Shown here: piece after piece, positions 17,547-22,140 of the stretch
How the letters are laid out: the number at the start of each line of letters is the position of its first letter
How positions within the stretch are numbered: position 1 is the first letter of the stretch
Assembly: GCF_004916905.1 (NCBI RefSeq)
Contig: NZ_SDLV01000047.1
Coordinates: 186,001-250,000, forward strand
DNA from: Chryseobacterium candidae
GTDB lineage: Bacteria > Bacteroidota > Bacteroidia > Flavobacteriales > Weeksellaceae
DNA length: 64,000 nt
Reading direction: 5' to 3'
Made by a program: the position numbers and the translations under genes
Notes under the pieces: model-generated
Told to the model about the DNA's origin: nothing
Database searches by the model: none
Seen by the model: the letters and a program-made list of their open reading frames with translations, nothing else

Positions 17547-18530
17547 TTATTCTATTTTAACTTTTGCCTTAGACTTGGACTTGGACTGGGCCTTGACGGG
17601 TGGCTTTTTCTCTGCTTTTTTTGTTTCTTTTGTTTCTTTTGTTTGTCCTTTCGGTTTTGTGCTCTCTTTCGGCTTTACCGAGGTGGAGCTGGTCTTTTTT
17701 ACCTCTGCTATTTTGGGTTTAGCTTCCGTCTTTTTAGCGGCTGTTGGGGAAGGAACTTTTGCCAATTCCATTTTCCCCGCCTTTAAAATACTGTCGTTTT
17801 CTTTAAAATAAGGGTTTAAAGTAGTGACAATCTGATTCTGATATTTCACAGAAACCATACTGTATTTCTGAGGGTCCTGATACACCAGGTATTTTTCCAC
17901 AAATGTTTTAAATCCTCTTACTTTAAAATCAATATTATCAAGATCTCCGATCTCAACTCTGTAGTTTCCTTCGCTTGTCAGAAGATTATAACTGTCTTTA
18001 TTTTTAGAGATTCCGATAAAGTATTTCTTACTGAAATCATCTTTATCAATTTTTTCTACCAGTTCTGCCAGCTTCTCATATTCATCAGGCTTTACGTTTC
18101 CGGTTACCAGCATACATGGATGTGAGTAGGTTCTTGAAATAGGGAATTCAACTCCTTTCTCATCCACATAAAAGTCTTTTCCGTCTTTATTTAATCTGAA
18201 AACAGGTACTCTCTGTTTGATATCCAGATTCAGCTTTCCATTCAGGTTCAAGTAGACGTTGGCACTGTCTACCGCCGGAAGAGAATTTATTCTTTTTTCT
18301 AAAGAAGGGATATTAAGGTCTCCTACTTTTCCTGATGGATTTTCTTTTTTTACTAGTTCCCTGATGTCTTTTTCATCCACGAAATAGACCGGAGTTTTCT
18401 CACTCATTTTTACAGAAATCTTATTGTCTGTAATCTGTTGGTGGCTGAATCTCTTCAATGAGAAACTCAGTAACAATCCAAGGATGATTACCGTGACAAC
18501 AATTTTTAATATTCTGTATTTATTTTTCAT
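17547..18530 (-). CDS. ftsQ: FtsQ-type cell division protein
   Basis: A 327-residue bitopic inner-membrane protein. A membrane helix lies at about residues 7-24, followed by a POTRA-like region (YFVDEKDIRELV, LEKRINSLPAVDSANVYLNLNGKLNLDIKQR cut across this block) and an FtsQ beta domain. The C-terminal 70 residues are a Lys/Pro/Thr-rich, low-complexity tail not seen in proteobacterial FtsQ. Position between murC and ftsA supports the assignment. FtsQ links the FtsBL complex to FtsI/FtsW in the divisome. Confidence 0.88.
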   Translation of the reverse strand: MKNKYRILKIVVTVIILGLLLSFSLKRFSHQQITDNKISVKMSEKTPVYFVDEKDIRELVKKENPSGKVGDLNIPSLEKRINSLPAVDSANVYLNLNGKLNLDIKQRVPVFRLNKDGKDFYVDEKGVEFPISRTYSHPCMLVTGNVKPDEYEKLAELVEKIDKDDFSKKYFIGISKNKDSYNLLTSEGNYRVEIGDLDNIDFKVRGFKTFVEKYLVYQDPQKYSMVSVKYQNQIVTTLNPYFKENDSILKAGKMELAKVPSPTAAKKTEAKPKIAEVKKTSSTSVKPKESTKPKGQTKETKETKKAEKKPPVKAQSKSKSKAKVKIE

Positions 18531-18573: not shown

Positions 18574-18951
18574 TTATAATTTATTTACAACTCGTTTTAC
18601 TCCATTTTTGAATAATATTGAATGGAAGTTCAAAATCATTCCAAGTTTTATATCTGTTATTCTTAAATAATTTAAAAGCTGGAAAAAATGATAATCATTA
18701 ATCTCCTGAATTGCCTTTATTTCAATTATTACTTTGTTTTCAACTAATAAATCTACTCTGAACGCTTTAGAAATTTTTAATTCTTCATATTCAATGTCGA
18801 TATTTTTTTGACTTTCTACATTCAATCCTCTATTTTTTAGTTCATAAACTAAACATTCTTCATATACATTTTCATAAAGCCCAATTCCAAGCGTACGATG
18901 TATTTTCATTCCAGCATCGAAAACAATTTCTGAAATTTTATTTTCAATCAT
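18574..18951 (-). CDS. GxxExxY family protein (PD-(D/E)XK-like), inserted in dcw cluster
   Basis: A 125-residue protein of the GxxExxY family. The naming motif is G24-L-Y-E27-N-V-Y30. The likely nuclease core is D67 in RVDLLV and E77-I-K79 in VIIEIKA, which is the D...ExK pattern of PD-(D/E)XK enzymes. The ATG at 18951 is preferred over a TTG 14 codons upstream, because the family normally begins at about IENKISEIV. The family has no settled function. It breaks the ftsQ-murC junction, and a 25-bp inverted repeat lies just upstream at 19009-19111, suggesting a mobile or horizontally acquired insert. Confidence 0.88.
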   Translation of the reverse strand: MIENKISEIVFDAGMKIHRTLGIGLYENVYEECLVYELKNRGLNVESQKNIDIEYEELKISKAFRVDLLVENKVIIEIKAIQEINDYHFFQLLNYLRITDIKLGMILNFHSILFKNGVKRVVNKL

Positions 18952-19008
18952 ACATTTTGTGTTTTTATTTTTAACGCTATGATCGCAAAGCAATCTTTTT
19001 ATTTTTTC

Positions 19009-19111
19009 CGTTCGCGAGGGCGTTTCACTCAGCTACGGCTATATTTTTATAATTTGTTTTAATAATATAATTTGTTTTTCTCATTTGCTGAGTGAAACGC
19101 CTTTGCGAACG
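19009..19111. repeat. 25-bp inverted repeat beside the GxxExxY gene
   Basis: The left arm (19009-19033, starting CGTTCGCGAGGGCGTTTCAC) and right arm (19087-19111, ending CGCCTTTGCGAACG) are inverted copies with two mismatches, around a 53-bp AT-rich loop. A third fragment, TTCGCGAACGCAGCGTTT, follows at about 19127-19144, next to the murC stop. The arms are much richer in GC than their surroundings. Confidence 0.85.
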
Positions 19112-19145
19112 ATTTTATATTTTTATTCGCGAACGCAGCGTTTAA

Positions 19146-20504
19146 TCAAACCTTTTCTATCCATTCACAAATAGGATCATACAGGGTGTCTATATTTCCT
19201 GCACCTACCGTAAGAAGGATATCAAAATCTTTCTCTTTTATTTTTTCAAAAGCATCGGATAATGTGGATACTTCTTTTTTATCTAATATTACCTTATCCA
19301 GCAGCCAGCTTGAAGTAATTCCTTCAAAATTTTCCTGAAGCTCTCTTGCAGGGTAAATGTCAAGAAGGATCAGCTCATCTGCTTTGCTTAAACTTTCTGC
19401 AAACCCATCTGCGAAATCTCTTGTTCTGCTGAAAAGGTGAGGCTGGAAGGCTACCAACAGCTTTTTATCAGGATAAAATGTTCTGATTGAACTCATTACA
19501 GCATTGATTTCTGTAGGGTGGTGAGCATAATCATCAATGTAAATCTTACCGTTTTGATAAATATGTTTGGTATATCTTCTTTTAATTCCTTTAAAATTGG
19601 CAATTGCTTTTTTCAGCGTATCAAAATCTGCGCCTAAATTATGCAGAATAGCCAGTGCTACAGTGGCATTTTCCACATTATGGATCCCCGGAATTTCCCA
19701 GACAAAATCTTTAACTGTTTCGGTTGGGGTATGGAAATCAAAATAAATTTTATCATGATCCATACGAAGGTTGTCTGAATAATAATCTGCAGGCTCATTT
19801 ACCGCATAAGTCTGATGCCCTCTGCCAATTTCCAGACCTTTTCTTACAAAAAGTTGTTTGTCTTGAGGAACTAACGCTGCGAATTGTCTGAATCCTTCTT
19901 CAATATGATTTATATCTCCATAAATGTCCAGGTGATCAGCATCTGTAGAAGTTACTACTGCCCAGTCTGGAGACAGGTTCAGGAAGCTTCTGTCATATTC
20001 GTCTGCCTCTACCACGGAATATTTGGAACCGTTGTACAGGAAGTTGGATTTAAAGTTTTCAGAAATTCCTCCCAAAAAACATGAAAATGGAAGATCTGCT
20101 TCTTTGCATAAGTGAGCCACAAGGGTAGACGTGGTAGTCTTTCCATGAGTTCCTGCAACAGCTATACAATCTGTATTTTCTGTGATTAATCCTAAAACTT
20201 TAGCACGTTTCAACACTTCAAACTGATTTTGGTTGAAGAAATCAAGGATTCCCAGTTTTTTAATGGCTGGCGTATAAATAACTAATGTATCTTCTTTTTT
20301 AAGGGAAGTGATCCTTTCATCAACAAGGTCTTCAAAAACAATATCAATCCCTTCATTCATCAGATTCTGAGTCAGTTTGGTATTGGTTTTGTCATAACCC
20401 AATACTTTTTTTCCGGATGCATTGAAATAGCGTGCTAACGCACTCATTCCAATACCTCCGATGCCAACGAAGTAAAAAGTCTGATATGTTTGTAAAATGT
20501 TCAT
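19146..20504 (-). CDS. murC: UDP-N-acetylmuramate--L-alanine ligase MurC
   Basis: A 452-residue cytoplasmic ligase that adds L-Ala to UDP-MurNAc. An N-terminal Rossmann-like domain carries FVGIGGIGMSALARYF (12-27). The ATP-binding P-loop is AGTHGKTTTSTL, with the Mur-family blocks YSVVEADEYDRSFL, STDADHLDIYGD, HNVENATVA and DDYAHHPTEI that are diagnostic for MurC. Its length is typical. It lies between the murG side, where a GIY-YIG gene intervenes, and the GxxExxY gene. Confidence 0.97.
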   Translation of the reverse strand: MNILQTYQTFYFVGIGGIGMSALARYFNASGKKVLGYDKTNTKLTQNLMNEGIDIVFEDLVDERITSLKKEDTLVIYTPAIKKLGILDFFNQNQFEVLKRAKVLGLITENTDCIAVAGTHGKTTTSTLVAHLCKEADLPFSCFLGGISENFKSNFLYNGSKYSVVEADEYDRSFLNLSPDWAVVTSTDADHLDIYGDINHIEEGFRQFAALVPQDKQLFVRKGLEIGRGHQTYAVNEPADYYSDNLRMDHDKIYFDFHTPTETVKDFVWEIPGIHNVENATVALAILHNLGADFDTLKKAIANFKGIKRRYTKHIYQNGKIYIDDYAHHPTEINAVMSSIRTFYPDKKLLVAFQPHLFSRTRDFADGFAESLSKADELILLDIYPARELQENFEGITSSWLLDKVILDKKEVSTLSDAFEKIKEKDFDILLTVGAGNIDTLYDPICEWIEKV

Positions 20505-20615
20505 TTTATATTTAATCTTTAATAACTTCTGAACCAGTTCAGAGTTTTATTACTAATATTTTATAATATAAAGCTTTCATCAATGACTCGCTAATGAATT
20601 AAACTTTAACGGTGT

Positions 20616-20638
20616 AAGGCTGAGCTTGTCGAGGCCTT
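20616..20638. repeat. REP-like palindrome, CTGAGCTTGTCGA type (copy 1)
   Basis: AAGGC at the left end pairs with GCCTT at the right end around TGAGCTTGTCGAG. It abuts the stop codon of the GIY-YIG gene at 20639. Confidence 0.7.
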
Positions 20639-20932
20639 CTAATCTTTCATCCTATTTTTTGATAACATTGGTAATAAGTCCCAGTTATCATTTATTATTG
20701 CTTCCTTCTTTTTTCTACTCCAACCTTTAATTTGTTTTTCAAAGCTTATAGCTTGAGTAGCATCATTAAATTCATGATAGAAAACAAGTTCTACAGGTTT
20801 TCTTGTATACGTGTAACTTTCAGGATTAAATCCGTCATTATGTTCATTAATTCTTCTTTCCAAATCGTTGGTAAAGCCTGTATAATAAGAATTATCAGAA
20901 CATTTTACAATGTATACATAATATATTTTCAT
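20639..20932 (-). CDS. GIY-YIG family nuclease-like protein, inserted in dcw cluster
   Basis: A 97-residue protein of the small single-domain GIY-YIG type (UPF0213/YhbQ-like). The core is YYVYIVKCSDNSYYTGFTN, with Tyr-Val-Tyr and Tyr-Thr-Gly in place of GIY and YIG, then the catalytic-type Arg in DLERRINEHN and the Glu of ISFEKQIKGW. Small proteins like this are found in many bacteria; activity is rarely shown. The gene lies between murG and murC and is bracketed by REP-like palindromes (20616, 20950, 21009), which suggests it moved with or by such repeats. Confidence 0.9.
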   Translation of the reverse strand: MKIYYVYIVKCSDNSYYTGFTNDLERRINEHNDGFNPESYTYTRKPVELVFYHEFNDATQAISFEKQIKGWSRKKKEAIINDNWDLLPMLSKNRMKD

Positions 20933-20949: not shown

Positions 20950-21038
20950 CTGACCCTTCGACAAGCTCAGGGTGACAGATCTAATACTAACTGTTTTATT
21001 GTATTTATGTCAGGCTGAGCTTGTCGAAGCTTTTCCTG
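20950..21038. repeat. Two opposed REP-like palindromes (copies 2 and 3)
   Basis: CTTCGACAAGCTCAG at 20956-20970 and its exact reverse complement CTGAGCTTGTCGAAG at 21014-21028 face each other. Copy 2 is itself a palindrome (TGACCC...GGGTGACA). Copy 3 reaches to within two bases of the murG stop codon. Copy 1 lies on the other side of the GIY-YIG gene. Confidence 0.8.
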
Positions 21039-21039
21039 A

Positions 21040-22140
21040 TTATTTTATTACTTTAATAATCTCGTCTACAATCTCTTTTGCAGCATTTGGCTTAGCAAAA
21101 TACTTCAGATTGTCGGACATTTCTTTTCTTACATTTTCATTCTCGCAGATCTCTGATAATGTATTCCAGAATTTTTCCTGCATTTCAGAGTCTTTTACCA
21201 TTCTGGCTGCATTTTTTTCAACCAGATTCATGGCATTTTTAGTCTGGTGATCTTCCGCTGCAAAAGGGAAGGGAACCAAAAGGACCGGTTTCTGTGCTAC
21301 AGCCAGCTCAGAAATGGCAATGGCTCCGGCTCTTGAAACGATGATATCCGCTGCAGAATAAGCCAGTTCCATATCTTTAATGAATTCAAGGATCTGAATA
21401 TTTCTGGTGTCTGTATCTTTTGTTTCTGCTAAAATATCTTTATAATCAAGCTTTCCTGTCTGCCAGATCAGCTGATAATCTTTATCTACAATTTGTTTTA
21501 AATGAGATTTCCATGCATTATTCAGAGTTCTGGAGCCTAAAGAACCTCCTACAGAAAGAATCGTAAGTTTATCTTTATCCAATCCCATTTTTTCTTTTGC
21601 ATGAGATGTTTCCTGCATTCCTGAAACAATGTTTTCACGGATCGGATTTCCCAGGAATTTTATTTTCTCTGCCGGGAATCCTTCTACTTTTGGATAAGCG
21701 GTGAAAACGGCTTTAGCTTTCTTGCTTAAAATTTTATTGGTTACTCCTGCATGGGCATTCTGTTCCTGGATGAAAATCGGAATTCCCATTTTGCTTGCTT
21801 CATAAAGAGCGGGTCCGCTGGCAAATCCTCCTGTTCCTACAGCAAAGTCGGGAGCGAAGTTTTTGATAATCCTTTTAGATTTTGATAAACTTTTCAGAAT
21901 CTTAAAAGGAAGTCCCAGGTTAGACAACAAATTTCCTCTGTCGATTCCTGCGATATCAATTCCTTCAATTTTATAGCCTGCCTGTGGAACTTTCTCCATT
22001 TCCATTTTGCCGTTGGCGCCAATGAACAAAAATTCTGCATCAGGAAATCTTTTTCTGATCTCATCTGCAATAGCGATGGCCGGGAAGATATGTCCTCCTG
22101 TTCCTCCGCCGGATAATAGTATTTTTAATTTTTTGTCCAT
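21040..22140 (-). CDS. murG: UDP-N-acetylglucosamine transferase MurG
   Basis: A 366-residue GT28 glycosyltransferase that converts lipid I to lipid II at the inner face of the membrane. The N-terminal glycine-rich loop is LLSGGGTGGHIFPAIAIA (8-25). Further blocks are GTGGFASGPALYEA, QEQNAHAGVTNKIL, SVGGSLGSRTLN and SRAGAIAISELAV, all standard for MurG. Its ATG is 2 bp after the ftsW stop, so the two are translationally close. Confidence 0.97.
   Translation of the reverse strand: MDKKLKILLSGGGTGGHIFPAIAIADEIRKRFPDAEFLFIGANGKMEMEKVPQAGYKIEGIDIAGIDRGNLLSNLGLPFKILKSLSKSKRIIKNFAPDFAVGTGGFASGPALYEASKMGIPIFIQEQNAHAGVTNKILSKKAKAVFTAYPKVEGFPAEKIKFLGNPIRENIVSGMQETSHAKEKMGLDKDKLTILSVGGSLGSRTLNNAWKSHLKQIVDKDYQLIWQTGKLDYKDILAETKDTDTRNIQILEFIKDMELAYSAADIIVSRAGAIAISELAVAQKPVLLVPFPFAAEDHQTKNAMNLVEKNAARMVKDSEMQEKFWNTLSEICENENVRKEMSDNLKYFAKPNAAKEIVDEIIKVIK

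Follow-up and report, generated by a model that had tools for sequence, protein, structure and literature searches.

Two nuclease genes and their repeats in a dcw cluster

The window analysed here is a stretch of 64,000 nucleotides from Chryseobacterium candidae (contig NZ_SDLV01000047.1, positions 186,001 to 250,000), in which the division and cell wall (dcw) cluster lies on the minus strand and reads murG, a GIY-YIG nuclease gene, murC, a gene of the GxxExxY family and ftsQ, in that order (Table 1). Each of the two small genes was accompanied by a repeat: read from murG, the first gap held the copy R1a, a spacer, the inverted copy R1b, the GIY-YIG gene and R1c before murC, and the second gap, read from murC, held a nested palindrome of about 170 bp (R2), the GxxExxY gene and then ftsQ. 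The original prediction, made from the letters of this DNA, had placed both genes and palindromic repeats beside them in these gaps, with which protein profiles and the repeat search agreed. It had also raised the possibility that the same repeats flank both genes; instead, the GIY-YIG and GxxExxY genes each have a different repeat, R1 and R2 respectively. Besides a 600-aa frame read as UvrC, the genome of this strain has four solo GIY-YIG genes and one GxxExxY gene.

Table 1. Positions of the nuclease genes, repeats and flanking genes within the window.
Feature	Position	Strand	Evidence
GIY-YIG nuclease gene, solo, 97 aa, UPF0213-like, murG/murC gap	20639..20932	-	PF01541 1.3e-19
GxxExxY / PDDEXK_3 nuclease-fold gene, murC/ftsQ gap	18574..18951	-	PF13366 7.3e-40, TIGR04256 5.3e-40
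R1a, repeat copy adjoining murG	21008..21029	-	repeat search
R1b, inverted copy adjoining GIY-YIG gene	20956..20977	+	repeat search; R1a-R1b fold z -6.6
R1c, direct copy past GIY-YIG gene, murC side	20613..20638	-	repeat search
R2 outer arm, murC end	19126..19145	-	read from sequence
R2 inner arm	19087..19111	-	inverted repeat I1, 92% complementary
R2 inner arm, partner	19009..19033	-	inverted repeat I1, 92% complementary
R2 outer arm adjoining GxxExxY gene	18970..18990	-	read from sequence
murG, flank	21040..22140	-	frame order; tblastn across relatives
murC, flank separating both junctions	19146..20504	-	frame order; tblastn across relatives
ftsQ, flank	17547..18530	-	frame order; tblastn across relatives

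Single-stranded folding of the R2 stretch (z -5.4) and of the R1 pair (z -6.6) beat all 200 shuffles. Allowing up to one mismatch, the R1 core matched 30 times and the R2 core 14 times in the strain's own genome, and the backward-read pattern gave no match. R1 inverted pairs occur there, and both outer arms are present in the gene-less R2 copies L037, L038, L044 and L046. The window's GxxExxY gene adjoins one whole R2 hairpin and not two clear arms, with an inverted-repeat score of 18 (26 for the GIY-YIG gene) against the threshold of 34 defined below, unlike the clear bracketing found in relatives. An Rfam identity for the repeats was rejected, all four matches lying far below gathering scores. 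Of the other solo GIY-YIG genes of this genome, L002 and L003 are each flanked on both sides by palindromes of other kinds (TTGTCATTCCGTAGGAATCC; TGTCATTCTGAATGAAG...GAAGAATC), and long direct copies also enclose L002. No inverted repeat accompanies L004, whose upstream frame reads RHCEERSEEAIS, presumably as a CGTCATTGCGAG-type repeat would.

By sequence, both window genes are members of their families, GxxExxY / PDDEXK_3 and UPF0213. The GIY-YIG protein scored over the PF01541 cut-off and matched the UPF0213 structure 1zg2 (E 1e-15 by hmmsearch against PDB sequences, 3e-6 by fold), UPF0213 being the closest of the solved relatives by fold and Slx1 the next. Its residues Y5, Y7, Y17, G19, R27 and E65 were invariant in nine sequences and are taken by us to be catalytic. 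The GxxExxY gene ends at 18574 and has two starts, ATG at 18951 (125 aa) and TTG at 18993 (139 aa); its product scored 136 bits against curated cut-offs of 35 and 22 (TIGR04256 / PF13366), and D67, E77 and K79 (ATG numbering; D ... E-x-K), likewise taken to be catalytic, were invariant in 16 aligned sequences including that of the window (L113 was left out of alignment A2). In the predicted structure of this putative nuclease (mean pLDDT, predicted local distance difference test, of 74; last 15 residues below 50), strands and helices follow one another as in a PD-(D/E)XK core. No solved relative was found by sequence at E 1. The model gave a best Foldseek E of 0.05, VIA Z values of at most 7 over many PD-(D/E)XK nucleases and weak kinship to Hjc and VRR_NUC; as these structural scores are weak and scattered, no PD-(D/E)XK subfamily is claimed. 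Third-position GC of both nuclease genes was low (0.20 and 0.22).

Occupied and empty junctions in related genomes

Relatives of the window's murC in Chryseobacterium reached 98% identity, and 150 murC loci were reduced to 118 distinct ones by dropping 32 duplicates before counting, with broken copies and remnants included in the nuclease counts. Occupancy was variable at both junctions. The murG-murC gap (118 loci) was short (≤300 bp) in 78 cases, held another gene in 26 and a GIY-YIG gene in 14, and the murC-ftsQ gap (116 known) was short in 77, held a GxxExxY gene in 31 and another gene in eight. The frequency of other genes (26/118 and 8/116) bears out the earlier expectation that these junctions tolerate insertion. 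Repeats followed the nuclease genes closely: R1 was found in 14/14 GIY-YIG gaps, 6/78 short gaps and 0/26 gaps with other genes, and R2 in 30/31 GxxExxY gaps, 4/77 short gaps and 0/8 gaps with other genes. The 34 gaps with other genes were all free of R1, of R2 and of inverted repeats scoring 34. The association of the nuclease genes with repeats, as originally proposed, is found here and, as described below, also outside the dcw cluster.

The original prediction had called for precise empty sites, and near-precise ones exist among the relatives. Four empty alleles (L052, L062, L141 and L143) carry one R1, whose left side is that of R1a and whose right side is that of R1c. Judged from these sequences, the single R1 is probably the trace of direct-repeat recombination or of insertion at a repeat, and a deletion between R1a and R1c would give the empty allele. 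Two further loci (L153 and L159) carry R2 with no GxxExxY gene. The outcome that would have spoken for simple vertical inheritance, namely both genes at the same place in all relatives and no empty sites, is not what was found.

Several side observations concern the same gaps. The other genes in the murG-murC gap (L083, L085, L087, L093, L104, L128, L130 and others) and in the murC-ftsQ gap (L092, L199, L108 and L114) include a protein of about 160 aa with a signal-like start (...QTLVKPADF...), lipoprotein-like open reading frames and others. Nuclease-free gaps often have a different palindrome of 65-85 bp on ATGTATTCATGAATACAT (L054, L141 and L145 at murC-ftsQ; L059 and L061 at murG-murC), and a third repeat family (GTCATTCTGA...GAAGAATC) occurs in the gene-less murG-murC gap of L153 and L157. 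In Epilithonimonas (L110:5620-5988 and L117:6059-6427) a second, divergent GxxExxY gene (59-62% identity) lies after ftsQ, so that a further dcw junction is used. At least six further divergent GxxExxY copies (59-67%) were located at the murC-ftsQ junction, adjoining murC by their coordinates.

Inverted repeats around nuclease genes outside the dcw cluster

Each gene was scored for bracketing by the strongest inverted repeat linking its two 350-bp flanks, with a threshold of 34, and genus controls were 349 random genes drawn from the window and from twenty stretches of 20 kb. The non-dcw sample in the genus comprised 40 GxxExxY and 58 GIY-YIG places among the matches listed, and L006 was dropped as a duplicate of L201. 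Outside the dcw cluster, 28/41 GxxExxY and 21/60 GIY-YIG loci had such an inverted repeat in comparison to 3/349 random genes, one of which was read as an insertion sequence transposase; at the dcw loci the proportions were 17/29 and 7/12. Direct repeats were also found at 26/60 GIY-YIG genes of the genus. When grouped by flanking genes, 70 GxxExxY elements reduced to six places and 72 GIY-YIG elements to 17 (among the matches listed), and since elements share places the loci are not independent. By our own tally, at least one member exceeded the threshold at 5/6 GxxExxY and 11/17 GIY-YIG places.

Bracketing extended to the phylum, where one locus per genome was taken and L425 and ten GIY-YIG loci whose motif search gave no gene were omitted. 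Inverted repeats were present at 19/49 GxxExxY loci in comparison to 4/311 random genes, and at least three CACAGAG/CGCAAAG-type units within about 45 bp, pointing to the gene, lay upstream of 16/49 GxxExxY loci and of 0/311 controls; in the wrong orientation the unit was seen at 3/49 loci. Among 19 scored GIY-YIG loci, six had inverted and 12 had inverted or direct repeats (random genes 4/311 and 9/311). The bracketed nuclease loci have the terminal inverted repeats by which insertion sequences and miniature inverted-repeat transposable elements are recognised. A match between clade and repeat was dropped as proof of co-evolution because it is confounded by orthology.

Repeat copy number in whole genomes

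R1 and R2 were counted in 148 whole genomes, and eight genomes with a divergent or broken dcw GxxExxY gene and three with a partial dcw GIY-YIG gene were set aside in the main comparison. The median R2 number was 16 in the 29 genomes with a dcw GxxExxY gene and 3 in the 111 without (p 4e-11 with the eight genomes restored), and the median R1 number was 28 in the 11 genomes with a dcw GIY-YIG gene and 4 in the 134 without. Crossed comparisons over the 148 genomes did not reach significance (p 0.39 and 0.11). The number of each repeat goes with one dcw gene and not with the other, R2 with GxxExxY and R1, less strongly, with GIY-YIG. Thirteen independent pairs differed in GxxExxY presence on a 70-genome murC tree, and R2 number differed in the same direction in 7.3 of them on average and in the opposite direction in none. 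Phylogenetic generalised least squares (PGLS), run after subtracting three hits from carriers, gave p 0.0018 for R2 on GxxExxY, 0.61 for R1 on GxxExxY and 0.83 for R2 on GIY-YIG. At 19 dispersed R2 places from genomes G059 and G038, no GxxExxY gene was found by motif. In one genome with no dcw GxxExxY gene, six R2 copies stand in tandem with a period of about 194 bp (L509, G032:C1:3394500-3396500).

Residence and lateral transfer

The GxxExxY copies of the dcw cluster group in a single clade, and within it gene trees of 28 loci grouped the copies of C. aurantiacum (L076) and L170 with L124 and L140, contrary to murC and ftsQ. In 100-bp blocks, L076 and L124 were 94-100% identical in the gap in comparison to 78-93% in murC and 78-88% in ftsQ, and dS (synonymous divergence) between them was 0.07 for GxxExxY, 1.25 for murC and 1.57 for ftsQ. 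Across unsaturated pairs, the ratio of dS to that of the flanks was 0.51 for GxxExxY (142 pairs) and 0.44 for GIY-YIG (24 pairs), whereas three other junction genes gave 1.38, 1.49 and 1.65 (11, 55 and 15 pairs). The low dS of both nuclease genes set against the higher dS of the other junction genes indicates transfer of the nuclease genes between species into the same junction. Between genera, GxxExxY was closer than the within-genus regression predicts (0.28, with 0.44 expected). Both genes are under purifying selection, with a ratio of non-synonymous to synonymous divergence (dN/dS) of 0.11 for GxxExxY and 0.13 for GIY-YIG, and occupancy changed at least 14 times on the 70-genome murC tree, broken copies being present.

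The genes reside in few places. Each of the six GxxExxY places (among the matches listed) corresponded to one protein clade, and in five GIY-rich genomes close copies (88-96%) lay 0.3 to 9.5 kb apart, with copies on different contigs at most 75% alike (25/30 loci gave a protein). The GIY-YIG unit copies of G212 and G199 were 88-94% alike at 0.4 to 9.5 kb, and in G212, where one close pair is in opposite orientation, the shared unit was the gene with short flanks. Close arrays of solo GIY-YIG genes were noted at L442, L456, L450, L453, G277:C1:1733881-1734727 and G212:C86:45033-46092, and four of the six array loci checked had a tRNA gene within about 150 bp. Recent genome-wide dispersal of the nuclease genes is not supported, given the agreement of clade and place for GxxExxY in the genus and the local GIY-YIG copies in the five genomes. 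Of the proposal that these genes are spread by or with the repeats, movement into the same junction is supported and recent spread to many new places is not. In summary, the nuclease genes are residents under purifying selection that are often lost and are replaced in place from outside, and the original interpretation is supported in part.

A proposed resident nuclease for each repeat family

We propose, at roughly even odds (a probability of about 0.5), that the two nuclease genes are resident partners, each of a single dispersed repeat family, in the manner of repetitive extragenic palindromes (REPs), their hairpin-forming doublets (REPINs) and REP-associated tyrosine transposases (RAYTs), with a small nuclease replacing the tyrosine transposase. 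The full unit would be the nuclease gene with its bracketing repeats, and the scattered gene-less arms and hairpins would be non-autonomous derivatives, as REPINs are of RAYTs. The enzyme would recognise its own repeat as structured or branched DNA and nick or cut it, host repair would copy the unit, in a homing-like manner, into an allele that is empty or bears a repeat and now and then copy arms elsewhere, and loss may occur by recombination between the flanking repeats.

According to passages of Bertels and Rainey (2011, PMC3116915), RAYTs are single-copy and each distinctive, with REPs alongside and lateral spread at long range. The present genes are likewise resident and mutually distinct beside their own repeats, to judge from those passages, and dispersed gene-less repeats and longer-range lateral transfer are found here too. 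Unlike RAYTs, the enzymes here are of GIY-YIG or PD-(D/E)XK type, in Pfam families other than Y1_Tnp (the HUH tyrosine transposase), and unlike REPINs, R2 is long and consists mostly of single arms (20 of 28 copies scored). In searches of open-licence full texts, no paper linking the GxxExxY/PDDEXK_3 or UPF0213 families to a repeat partnership was found, and GIY is not mentioned in the portions of PMC12306157 and PMC5896051 that were covered.

A second comparison is with the CGTC-tagged REP superfamily, which in the sections concerned of Di Nocera (2013, PMC3733652) apparently has no dedicated transposase. As far as those sections go, the GIY-linked repeats resemble it in being short palindromes, often in inverted pairs, and differ in the shorter stem of R1. 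The motif [CT]GTCA, a pattern chosen post hoc, was found in 23/31 repeat arms around genus GIY-YIG genes in comparison to 2/40 around GxxExxY, which recalls the CGTC-tagged REPs. A C/TGTC tag with a 6-bp stem beginning AT occurred at 6/27 phylum GIY-YIG loci and 9/310 controls (p 5e-4), most GIY-YIG loci failing, and the tag with a 6-bp stem gave a modest signal in the genus (2/17 GIY-YIG places, 3/349 controls, p 0.019); around GxxExxY genes it was found in 0/70 genus and 0/49 phylum cases. A tag test that left the first bases of the stem free was abandoned as too noisy, 43/310 controls being positive. We put forward only tentatively, as a conjecture that may well fail, that UPF0213-type GIY-YIG proteins could be the missing enzyme of CGTC/TGTC-tagged REPs, that GxxExxY proteins could serve the CACAGAG/CGCAAAG repeats in Bacteroidota and that homing-like spread could seed non-autonomous repeats.

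Several points weigh against a resident nuclease partnership. The action of the predicted nucleases on the repeats would be a reading of sequence evidence. One GxxExxY place (L296-L300) and 6/17 GIY-YIG places were under the bracketing threshold, with no clear arms. Among 28 dispersed R2 copies scored in G059, G038 and the strain's own genome (3/31 were left unscored), eight had both outer arms, the remaining 20 being mostly single left arms, and eight folded at z < -2. Some R2-rich genomes have no dcw GxxExxY gene (28 copies in G030, 27 in G144 and 21 in G137). For GIY-YIG, five independent pairs on the murC tree, 1.1 in the same direction, decide nothing, and the link of R1 to GIY-YIG was weak once phylogeny was allowed for by PGLS (p 0.042 with lambda fitted and 0.16 with lambda set to 1). 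The murC gene was used as the species tree yet itself sits between the two junctions, and the copy-number tests took the nuclease genes alone as predictors. Part of the dS deficit may be compositional given the low third-position GC, and between genera GIY-YIG had no distance deficit (0.18, with 0.18 expected).

T4 seg and mob genes are freestanding homing endonucleases, which cut the empty site and are copied in by repair. The present genes may similarly have products that cut the nuclease-free junction, the repeats being by-standers or deletion scars. The likeness to freestanding GIY-YIG enzymes of phages lies in a small gene within an intergenic gap, in occupied and near-precise empty alleles, in lateral transfer into the same site, here with no flanks carried along, and in the nuclease folds of both products; the present genes differ in being chromosomal, bracketed by dispersed repeats and closest to UPF0213 among solved relatives. 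We consider this account unlikely, as it leaves the repeat brackets at other places and the genome-wide repeat number that follows the gene unexplained. Nor was co-conversion of flanks clearly evident in the murC blocks of L076-L124, where the last blocks (91-93%) exceeded earlier ones (78-89%), a rise also seen there in other pairs.

Alternatively, tolerant junctions may have gathered small genes and mobile repeats separately, the repeats being moved by a RAYT or another transposase and merely aiding recombination. Other genes do occupy the same junctions, the third repeat family occurs at the L153 and L157 junction with no gene, and repeat numbers were compared with nuclease genes alone. Independent collection is nevertheless about as improbable as homing alone, given that none of the 34 other junction genes was accompanied by either repeat or by an inverted repeat scoring 34, that random genes were bracketed in just 3/349 and 4/311 cases and that R1 and R2 copy numbers are doubly dissociated. 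Domesticated host enzymes acting on hairpins or cruciforms formed by their own neighbourhood, with the repeats as substrates and nothing selfish, would suit the dN/dS of about 0.1, the long-lived places and the kinship of the GIY fold to Slx1 and, weakly, of the GxxExxY model to Hjc and VRR_NUC, and are very improbable in view of the patchy presence (at least 14 changes), the broken copies and the lateral replacement.

Bacterial genomes commonly contain short palindromic repeats, which are poorly explained. A repeatable link between repeats and nucleases would name enzymes to test in two widespread uncharacterised nuclease families, would explain small nuclease genes inside tight operons such as dcw and would extend the REPIN-RAYT concept to enzymes of unrelated fold. 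Our analysis suggests that such nucleases are unrecognised partners of common bacterial repeats, and if the resident partnership is true, small solo nucleases would constitute a second, unrecognised class of repeat-partner enzymes.

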